IMG/VR virus record: IMGVR_UViG_3300025914_000010
Coordinates: 1 to 64,000 of that record
Length of the DNA: 64,000 nt
Strand: one strand, 5' to 3'
From: a virus
Below the pieces are notes generated by a model. That model was given only the letters and a program-made list of their open reading frames with translations, had not been told where the DNA came from and searched no databases. The position numbers were made by a program, and so were the translations under genes. Below, piece by piece: positions 57,002 to 63,792 of the stretch (position 1 is its first letter; each line of letters opens with the position of its first letter).

Positions 57002-57505
57002 TCATTCGATGCTGGCGAGTTTTCGTTCTAGTTCAAGAATGTGCGCTTTCGCTTCCTTTAGTTCATTCTCGATTTTTGCGCGCTTCTGCTTCAATTCACG
57101 TTGCGTTATTACGTTGTGGTCCGTAGGAGAAACTATCTGGAGATTCTCAATCCGATTATCATCCTTCACGCCGTTGATGTGATGGATGCATTCTTTTCGA
57201 GTAAGAAATCTCCCGATGCTCTGTTCAACCACTACGCGGTGATGAAATTGCCACCCTCGATTAGAACGATTAGGATGATCTGGAGACCACACCATAACGT
57301 AGCCTTCGGGTGTCAATTTCGCAGGTCGTCCATTGAATTCCCAGTCCAGAGGCCGCTTAATATCGTCCATCGCCTCGCACTCTTTGGAACAATAGCGCTG
57401 TTTGTGCTGGCTGGGTTTCAGAACGAGTTCCCTGTCGCAGGTTTCACATCGCTTGATTATTGGCGTTTTGGCACGAAAACGATTAGCACATCTTCGAGCA
57501 GAAAA
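57002..57505 (-). pseudogene. HNH domain of a split homing endonuclease
   Basis: The frame from about 57505 reads ANRFRAKTPIIKRCETC (third finger end), CSKEC and HNH_3 residues QFHHRVVVEQSIGRFL, ECIHHINGVKDDNRIENLQI. The upstream frame (57483-57914) supplies the start and first fingers but stops at 57483. A 1-2 base shift near 57490 separates them. An internal ATG at 57370 could start the nuclease part alone. Confidence 0.65.
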
Positions 57506-57914
57506 TGCCACTACCTTGACCGCTTTTGCTGCGATAAGTAGGTTTGCCGCAATGCTCACATGGGAATTCTTCGCCACGTCGCTTCTTTTTAGGTCGCACC
57601 CACTGTCCCGATGCCACACGGCGTTGCATCGTGTAAGTACCACGACACTTCGCGCCACAGAACCACGGGCGATCGACCCTCACCTGAGATAGATAACGTG
57701 TAACGTCAGTCCCACATTGCGAGCACGGACGTGTTTCTTTTTTTCCTCGGTAGGGATTGTCGCGCCAACCATCGGGCACATTTCCTAACCTGATACGAAG
57801 CATGTTGGCGCAACTGCGACCGCACGTCCAATACCGCCGCTGATACTGTTGAGCTGGTGTGCGAGTTACGGGTTGCCCACAGAACTCGCACGGCTTCGTT
57901 TCTGTGACTAGCAA
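57483..57914 (-). pseudogene. Zinc-finger half of a split homing endonuclease
   Basis: TTG at 57914 has GGAGG 9 nt upstream. Three Cys4 fingers (CEFCGQPV...CGRSC, CSQCGTDV...CGAKC, CEHCGKPT...CSKMC), then TAA at 57485-57483, just before the third finger ends. The 5' region has AGAATA/TATTCT beside the ribosome-binding site, like the other cassettes. Confidence 0.65.
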
Positions 57915-61464: not shown

Positions 61465-62028
61465 TCATTTGTGTAGAAACGGCTTCAATTCATCCATTGA
61501 TGCCGCCTGCGTCAAATCGCTGTGTTGCCAGTAAACCATTCTCACTCCATCATCGTCCGTTGATTTGTAAAGGAACGGCTTGTCGATCGGACAATAAAAA
61601 AGCCCCGTAGGACATTCCTCCGGGGCTTGCCAACGCTCTACATCTCGCGGCCAAGTGTCTGACTGCACATGCAAAAAGAACAACAGTACACGATGATCTG
61701 AATACTTTTGAACTTTCAGGTAATCCAGATAGTGATTGTGGTTTATGCCTGTTACGAACTTCTTTTCTATGCCGTACCAGCTAAAGCGCGTTTTACGTTT
61801 TGCCTCAACCCACCCATGCCAAAAATACCCGGAAGGCGCGGATGGGTTGAAAACAAACATGTCTGGCGCGACTAATTCTTCACCATCACAGAAGAATTGT
61901 GGTCCCTTATGATCGTCGGTTTCCTTCTCGTACACCGGTAGAACATGGAAACCAATCGACTTCAACCACAGCGCTATGATGCTTTCGCCCATTTTGCCTA
62001 TTAGAAGCTGCCTACGAAAATCCCTCAC
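61465..62028 (-). CDS. PD-(D/E)XK nuclease-like protein
   Basis: GTG at 62028 overlaps TGA; 187 residues. GESIIALWLKSIGFHVLPV, VAPDMFVFNP and GWVEAKRKTRF give a helix-strand-PD...ExK layout of PD-(D/E)XK enzymes such as resolvases. Paired with a methylase next to it, it could be a restriction-like unit or nicking enzyme. Confidence 0.6.
   Translation of the reverse strand: MRDFRRQLLIGKMGESIIALWLKSIGFHVLPVYEKETDDHKGPQFFCDGEELVAPDMFVFNPSAPSGYFWHGWVEAKRKTRFSWYGIEKKFVTGINHNHYLDYLKVQKYSDHRVLLFFLHVQSDTWPRDVERWQAPEECPTGLFYCPIDKPFLYKSTDDDGVRMVYWQHSDLTQAASMDELKPFLHK
61595..61627 (-). terminator. Terminator-like hairpin inside a gene
   Basis: On the minus strand AGCCCCG-AGG and CCT-CGGGGCT pair with a loop, then TTTTTTATT. 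It lies within the coding region of the nuclease gene (around codon 135) and could cause early termination unless ribosomes cover it. Confidence 0.55.
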
Positions 62029-63086
62029 AGTGTCGCCCCCCATCCGTAGACAGAGAACGATTCTAAGAACCAATCACGATCTGGCCCAAGGTAGATAATC
62101 GCCTGCCCCTGCAATGGCGCGGAGAGTTTGCCGCCCGGTTCCCAAAACCGAACGCGGCCCCGCGTGAACACTACGGCGCTGGCAACCTCAACAATCTTGC
62201 AGAACCATGCCGTTTCCGTGGCATTGTTCACGAGCACAATAGCCGAAGTCACATCACCGGCGCGGAAATGCTCAACCAGTTTTGAAGCGAATTGGCCGAT
62301 GAGTTCGCCTGCATACGGCGGGTTCATCCATACCCGGCCTTGCCAACACTGCTTTAATCCGTCTGTCTCAGCATCGAAGAACTGAGCCGCGCCGACAACC
62401 TCATTGGCCGCTGCGCTGGATGCAGGATCGGTGTCGATACCGCCCATGACGGCGATTGCAGAAGTGATGTACTCCTTCGGTGTATACCATTCATTGTTTC
62501 CGGCGTTGTAGGAGACGTGCGCTGTCTTTTCAACTTCGCCCCATTTCGTTGTTTCGGCCCACTGCGCCCGCGCTTCCGGCGAAATGTGACAGTAGGGGCA
62601 ATACGGTAAGTCTGCCGCCCAAATATGTGATGGATTGACTTCGCACCGCTTCAGCCCGTCACTGTCTACATGAAATGACTTCGCGTCAGTATAAGCAGGC
62701 GCACTAAAAAACGCCGGTTCCTCTGTCAGAGGTTCCGGCGTAAATGCTGCCAACTCAATTTTGAGCGGAGGCGGCAATTCTTTTGGCTTGTTGAATATAT
62801 GAACAGCTTCGCGCAGACTAAGATTCGCAACGCGTTGCGAATCTTGCAGTAGTTCGTACCTGCGCTCATAAACGCGCATATAGAGATTGGCCGTCCTATG
62901 GCTTCCCTCAAAATTCTGCGCTACCCATTCAATCCATTTACCGTACTCAACCTTGCCCTTTTGTTCTGTAAGCAATTCCCCCGCACGAATTGCGTGCGGC
63001 AGTCCCGAAAGATATGCTGACTGAACGGCCCGATGTTCCTCATTGATTTCCGCTACAACGTCATACACTAATGCTAATTCGCTCAT
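62025..63086 (-). CDS. Phage DNA N6-adenine methyltransferase (DNMT) with N-terminal DUF3102
   Basis: ATG at 63086; 353 residues. Residues about 1-110 (AVQSAYLSGLPHAIRAGELL, KVEYGKWIEWVAQNF, RTANLYMRVYER) fit DUF3102. A CPYC segment and the PF05869-type DNMT part (EWYTPKEYI, DTDPASSAAANEVV, WMNPPYAGELIGQF, AVVFTRGRVRFW) follow; NPPY is the catalytic motif. It lies on the late strand, unusual for a methylase. Its leader has a switch-like structure. Confidence 0.85.
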   Translation of the reverse strand: MSELALVYDVVAEINEEHRAVQSAYLSGLPHAIRAGELLTEQKGKVEYGKWIEWVAQNFEGSHRTANLYMRVYERRYELLQDSQRVANLSLREAVHIFNKPKELPPPLKIELAAFTPEPLTEEPAFFSAPAYTDAKSFHVDSDGLKRCEVNPSHIWAADLPYCPYCHISPEARAQWAETTKWGEVEKTAHVSYNAGNNEWYTPKEYITSAIAVMGGIDTDPASSAAANEVVGAAQFFDAETDGLKQCWQGRVWMNPPYAGELIGQFASKLVEHFRAGDVTSAIVLVNNATETAWFCKIVEVASAVVFTRGRVRFWEPGGKLSAPLQGQAIIYLGPDRDWFLESFSVYGWGATL

Positions 63087-63090
63087 GTTT

Positions 63091-63184
63091 GCGCCCCTCC
63101 CAGGCGCTTTATCCTCCAAACGACAAAAAGCGCATAGCAAGCGTTTGGAGGAACGCTTTTCGCCCCGTCGGGCTAGCTATGCGC
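63091..63184 (-). promoter_or_regulatory. Candidate RNA switch: three-way junction terminator, antiterminator and RBS hairpin
   Basis: Leftward order: GCGCATAGC (63184-63176) pairs with 63138-63130 and encloses two hairpins (GCCC/GGGC and AAGCGTT/AACGCTT), then TTTTT, i.e. a terminator. CCTCCAAACG in the second hairpin (63151-63142) can instead pair over 10 bases with 63122-63113. Next GCGCC/GGCGC (63107-63091) holds the GGGAGG ribosome-binding site of the methylase in its loop. Confidence 0.6.
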
Positions 63185-63222
63185 AGGCTGGTGAACAGCC
63201 ATTTTCAGTTTTTAGCGAACGC

Positions 63223-63792
63223 TTACTTCTTGAGAATAATCTCCGTCTTCGGCATATTCCTCAGTTCCGCCATCCTGCGCTCTAGCAGCACCGCAACTTC
63301 CGCGAGTTCAGCCGGAATAGGGAATCGTTTCACCTGCTTCTCAAGCGCCGCCTGCACGATCGCGTCACCGACGTTCTTCGCGCTTTCGTCAAAAGTTCTA
63401 CCCGAGAAGAACTTCGCCAACTGCTCGCGAGCATCCGCTGCTGTCGGCAAGGGCTTGGCAAGCGCGTCCATCCCCTTTGCAGTGGGCACTTCGGTTGTAT
63501 CGCCCCAATTCGCTCGCCGCTTCCGCCGAAGAAAGTCCGTCACCTCAGCCATACTGGACTTCGCGCGATAGTATTCCTCGCCAATTTCGGTGATGCTCTT
63601 TTCGGGATGAGCGGCTGCGTAATCGGCAAGCGGTGTCTTAATTGACGCGCTGCGCTCGACCGGCGTCTTATAGACCGCCGCGCCCTCCACATAGCACGCA
63701 ACGCCTGCCATGCCAGTCAATCCGCAGTCGCAGCCGCGCCCGAGCGTGGTTTCACAATTCAGGGCGTGGTCGTGGGTTTCGGGAGTTATCAT
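63223..63792 (-). CDS. Hypothetical protein
   Basis: 189 residues. An N-terminal zinc-like part (CETTLGRGCDCG, ACYVEG) and a helical body (SITEIGEEYYRAKSSMAEV). It overlaps the preceding gene by ATGA. No function recognised; it may be connected with terminase or portal genes beyond the window. Confidence 0.55.
   Translation of the reverse strand: MITPETHDHALNCETTLGRGCDCGLTGMAGVACYVEGAAVYKTPVERSASIKTPLADYAAAHPEKSITEIGEEYYRAKSSMAEVTDFLRRKRRANWGDTTEVPTAKGMDALAKPLPTAADAREQLAKFFSGRTFDESAKNVGDAIVQAALEKQVKRFPIPAELAEVAVLLERRMAELRNMPKTEIILKK

Follow-up and report, generated by a model that had tools for sequence, protein, structure and literature searches.

We found that the 136-nt leader of a phage methylase gene belongs to the int-alpA RNA family (Rfam RF02996), and comparison with its relatives indicates that it is probably a cis-acting translational switch for the next gene, in which one loop would choose between a segment just downstream and the Shine-Dalgarno (SD) sequence. 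An orphan RNA family, filed in Rfam as 'Gene; sRNA', would thereby gain a concrete and testable mechanism, with the loop picking either a decoy or the gene's own ribosome-binding site.

The window analysed here, 64,000 nucleotides in length, covers positions 1 to 64,000 of IMGVR_UViG_3300025914_000010, a viral contig 78,660 bases long. The leader (63222-63087) lies on the minus strand, as do all features of the window described below, and occupies exactly the gap between an ORF at 63223-63792 and the methylase ORF at 62025-63086, which starts at position 63086. The first-pass annotation of the window had correctly placed the leader before the methylase gene and had given its length as 137 nt, one more than we measured. 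Domain matches identified the product of the downstream ORF (353 aa) as a phage DNA adenine methyltransferase (Dam) with a DUF3102 N-terminal region. As the same-strand neighbours of the leader encode a phage prohead protease, a major capsid protein and a terminase-like protein, the RNA and the methylase gene sit inside a block of structural genes. In a second virus contig (L004; IMGVR_UViG_3300009545_000268), the leader and the gene start were identical to those in the window over the stretch compared. Elsewhere in the window, the translation of an ORF at 57002-57658 resembled, by eye, an HNH endonuclease with a zinc-finger-like stretch.

The minimum free energy predicted for the leader was -53.9 kcal/mol, against -43.35 +/- 3.57 kcal/mol in dinucleotide shuffles (z = -2.96). 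The predicted fold comprises a three-way junction, a run of five U residues, an alternative partner for part of the junction and a hairpin with the SD in its loop; it is the fold that the first-pass annotation had read as a three-way junction followed by TTTTT, with a third hairpin presenting the ribosome-binding site. P1 is a perfect, GC-rich 9-bp helix between GCGCATAGC (63176-63184) and GCTATGCGC (63130-63138), both strands being assigned from the parse of relatives and the helix shuffle test, and the 5' strand also from P1 covariation. The P2 hairpin GCCC-GACG-GGGC (63162-63173) was assigned from the Rfam match, covariation and junction-base counts, and the junction strand J23, GAAAA (63157-63161), which is conserved along with J12 (UA) and J31 (CU or UU), from junction-base counts. 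The parse and covariation gave the P3 hairpin GCGTT-CCTCCA-AACGC (63141-63156), the loop of which is the switch strand, hereafter a. Immediately 3' of P1 in this leader is TTTTTG, with the five T residues at 63125-63129.

The P3 loop together with the 3' strand of its stem (UCCUCCAAACG) has a perfect 11-nt complement downstream (CGUUUGGAGGA). On the coordinates of the helix search, a (TCCTCCAAACG) spans 63142-63152 and its partner b (CGTTTGGAGGA) spans 63112-63122, the latter also resting on partner swaps in relatives; the perfect 10-base partner and mutually exclusive folds noticed earlier were thus recovered with one more base. The alternative partner of a, b-prime, is the SD itself, GGAGG (63096-63100; helix search and partner swaps). 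It lies just 5' of the AUG, in the loop of the P5 hairpin GCGCC-UGGGAGG-GGCGC (63091-63107), which was assigned from the fold prediction and its conservation in relatives. Of 300 letter shuffles of the leader, 3% contained a perfect helix at least 9 pairs long and none contained two.

Infernal (cmscan) matched positions 63113-63183 to RF02996 over the full length of the model (1-71) at 50.1 bits, compared with a gathering threshold of 35.8 bits (E = 2e-7 over the window). The leader shares with the int-alpA motif the P1-P2-P3 junction and the conserved junction bases (CUA, GAAAA and CU). Many relatives lie between integrase and AlpA genes, whereas the present locus is in a structural-gene block and is flanked by the ORF at 63223-63792 and the Dam methylase gene; the location implied by the family name is no part of the covariance model and is not needed for membership. 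A further difference is that P5 and the SD, the second partner of the P3 loop, lie 3' of the Rfam model, which ends at segment b. As b is part of the model, its authors may already have been aware that a pairs with b. The RNA family is therefore known, while the competition for the SD and the SD hairpin appear to be undescribed within Rfam and the one open-access library that we searched, in which int-alpA was named without functional data and RF02996 was not named. Direct similarity searches of the leader DNA against annotated phages found nothing. We noticed an int-alpA-like stretch in one annotated phage, Pseudomonas phage Phipami28 (L090:6001-6054), with no feature annotated on it.

Relatives were collected with junction-core patterns, whose hits came from phage contigs as well as from Pseudomonas, Nitrosomonas, Methylomonas, Enterobacterales and other genomes, and with an Rfam model search of whole genomes, which gave further loci. 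A script parsed each locus into P1, P2, P3, loop, downstream segment and start codon. We obtained 157 well-parsed loci, from which a non-redundant set of 90 relatives with less than 80% mutual similarity was drawn, comprising phages, satellites and genomes. The family turned up often in the genomes sampled: 76 of 349 from one order and 24 of 295 from another carried it, and 199 of 5,426 E. coli genomes contained similar DNA.

The junction is strongly conserved as a structure. In 46 aligned relatives, 15 of the 16 junction pairs showed changes on both sides, 95.1% of the P1-P3 cells were paired (66% when shuffled), and the covariation score was 0.736 against 0.175; the signal collapsed when the alignment was slid by one column. 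CUA was found in 89 of the 90 relatives and GAAAA in 60. The terminal loops of P2 fall into discrete classes rather than varying freely (CGACGG in 57 of 90, GUAGCUC in 11, as well as GGCC and CUGAUCC types; e.g., L001, L093, L133 and L161), which suggests a contact or a binding partner.

The pairing of a with b was tested by swapping partners between relatives rather than by counting columns, as the MAFFT alignment misplaced b. The a:b score was 13.5, compared with 9.75 +/- 0.23 for swapped partners, and the a:SD score was 13.3, compared with 11.07 +/- 0.20 (n = 90 for both); each also exceeded the scores of shuffled loops. Two exclusive partners, each 5 bp or longer, were present in 65 of the 90 relatives (26.9 +/- 3.2 after swapping), or in 50 when only Watson-Crick pairs were counted (8.8 +/- 2.4), and were missing in 25 at the threshold used. 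The first-pass annotation had staked its switch on the alternative pairings being conserved in relatives, and they were. Because kinship can mimic covariation, we also limited the swaps to nearest relatives: the own partner was better in 70 cases against 13 for b (p = 1e-10) and in 57 against 28 for the SD (p = 0.002). On these comparisons, the kinship-controlled excess of a:SD pairing is real, albeit more modest than that of a:b. The Rfam model might itself favour AGGG at b, so the two-partner test was repeated on 28 loci found nearly all by the junction-only pattern, of which 20 had two partners (6.1 +/- 1.8 after swapping).

The anti-SD-like character of loop a accounts for part of its pairing with the SD. 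Of 16 loops that lack this character, several still match their own SD region (L005, L010, L033, L082, L158 and L159), and about half have no good match to it (e.g., L003, L040, L117 and L207). The flanks of P5 scored 9.8 with their own partners and 7.8 +/- 0.2 with swapped ones, making P5 a third conserved hairpin. The end of the second partner lies a median of 6 nt upstream of the start codon, and in 90% of relatives 23-43 nt separate the end of P1 from the start codon. Comparison among relatives thus shows the junction, the pairing of a with b or, alternatively, with the SD, the P5 hairpin and the placement of the RNA at a start codon.

From these features we propose that the three-way junction (P1, P2 and P3 with CUA, GAAAA and CU) would display the P3 loop a. 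When a pairs with b just downstream, forming a pseudoknot, the SD would be left free for the ribosome, and this is presumably the ON state. When a pairs instead with the SD in the P5 loop, some 6 nt upstream of the start codon, initiation would be blocked. How the leader divides between the two states would depend on a signal that acts on either the junction or P5, and whose existence we infer. Control most likely falls on translation rather than on termination, because what is conserved among relatives is competition for the SD. The leader has the conserved structure and the alternative SD pairing expected of a translational riboswitch. In known translational riboswitches with SD-sequestering pseudoknots, such as SAM-II and preQ1-II, a loop of a structured 5' leader pairs with the SD. 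The int-alpA leader is predicted to resemble them in having a loop able to do so; it differs in having no Rfam match to these families and in the unrelated genes that follow its relatives. Hairpins over the SD also control the translation of the free-standing homing endonuclease genes of phage T4, and several int-alpA relatives likewise combine RNA structure at the SD with a downstream HNH or endonuclease VII gene, whereas the conserved three-way junction, the two competing partners and the unrelated genes set int-alpA apart.

Other readings of the leader have to be weighed against this proposal. The first-pass annotation took it for a terminator/antiterminator switch, in which P1 and the U run would terminate transcription and a:b would open P3 and P1 to allow read-through. 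This member does carry a GC-rich P1 followed by TTTTTG, and its a:b pairing reaches 11 nt, into the P3 stem. Nevertheless, only 4 of the 90 relatives had at least five consecutive T residues in the 8 nt following P1, and in most relatives a:b is formed largely by loop bases and can coexist with P1-P3. A scan of the minus strand at 62800-63500, which takes only loops of 3-8 nt and would leave branched terminators undetected, found no terminator-like site. The exclusive pairings and the SD hairpin of that earlier reading therefore stand and conserved termination does not, so that attenuation appears very improbable; the TTTTT of this member is an exception, and termination may occur here, though it is not the conserved feature. 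S-adenosylmethionine (SAM) or the methylase itself, put forward earlier as the signal, is not favoured either. No SAM or SAH riboswitch family matched at gathering threshold over the window, nor at E up to 1 over 63000-63300, and a Dam methylase was encoded downstream in only one of 139 cases.

The Rfam type would instead make the RNA a trans-acting small RNA whose position before a start codon is incidental, and the CU-rich loop a could indeed pair with the SDs of other mRNAs. The positional evidence from the sequences argues for action in cis: the distance to the start codon is tight, P5 and b-prime are tied to that codon's own SD, pairing weakens when partners are swapped even among close relatives, and the scarcity of T runs leaves the relatives with no conserved terminator. 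We thus consider a free small RNA quite unlikely. Slightly less so, although still unlikely, is an element that merely tunes translation, its structure fixing a low or buffered level of the cargo gene product with no sensing. The small conserved core would suit such an element, and so would the unrelated downstream genes, which share no pathway and give no clue to a signal. Two competing partners kept in most members suggest regulated alternation, however, as one hairpin could fix a level. Also speaking against a translational switch, nested folding of this member, a model that leaves pseudoknots out, scored the junction best at -46.0, compared with -42.1 when a:b was forced and -38.4 when a:SD was.

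A phage integrase match was found upstream in 35 of 83 relatives, and at many loci P1 starts about 7 nt 3' of the stop codon of the upstream gene. AlpA or HTH_17 is often encoded next, AlpA in 28 of 69 relatives. The downstream proteins are hypervariable and mostly unrelated; few of the 139 match Pfam, chiefly HNH/AP2, and no common function was found among them. It is possible, albeit rather doubtful, that the int-alpA junction serves as the sensing part of an as yet undescribed class of RNA that responds to a ligand, as riboswitches do, or to a protein. Phages and satellites would then attach it as a portable module to unrelated cargo genes (for nucleases, methylases and proteins of unknown function), whose expression would be timed by one shared cue, for example induction or infection. 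Since the RNA precedes hypervariable cargo genes in satellites and endonuclease genes in phages, its signal could reveal the timing of accessory genes.

A TATAAT-like hexamer was present 3-9 nt 5' of P1 in six of eight tested phage loci (L005, L010, L033, L034, L157 and L159, with L020 and L158 lacking it), against 8% of random windows; the eight, mostly of the nuclease type, were picked after some upstream sequences had been seen, so the test was not blind and its count should be taken as a lead. With the hexamer at this distance, the RNA can be the 5' end of an mRNA. A conserved sigma-70 promoter before all members was not seen, as a hexamer matching at 5 of 6 positions near P1 occurred in 13 of 82 other loci, again against 8% of random windows. 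Several relatives are followed by an HNH or endonuclease VII gene, as are most of the hexamer-bearing phage loci, which look like a promoter-RNA-nuclease cassette; among the eight, L005, L020 and L158 were without a Pfam nuclease match. Finally, many downstream proteins of unknown function (L050, L082, L143, L197, L025 and L152) shared, by eye, a similar N-terminal stretch (FKLKKFLTLEDAAKRLS...LDGHLKLSV).
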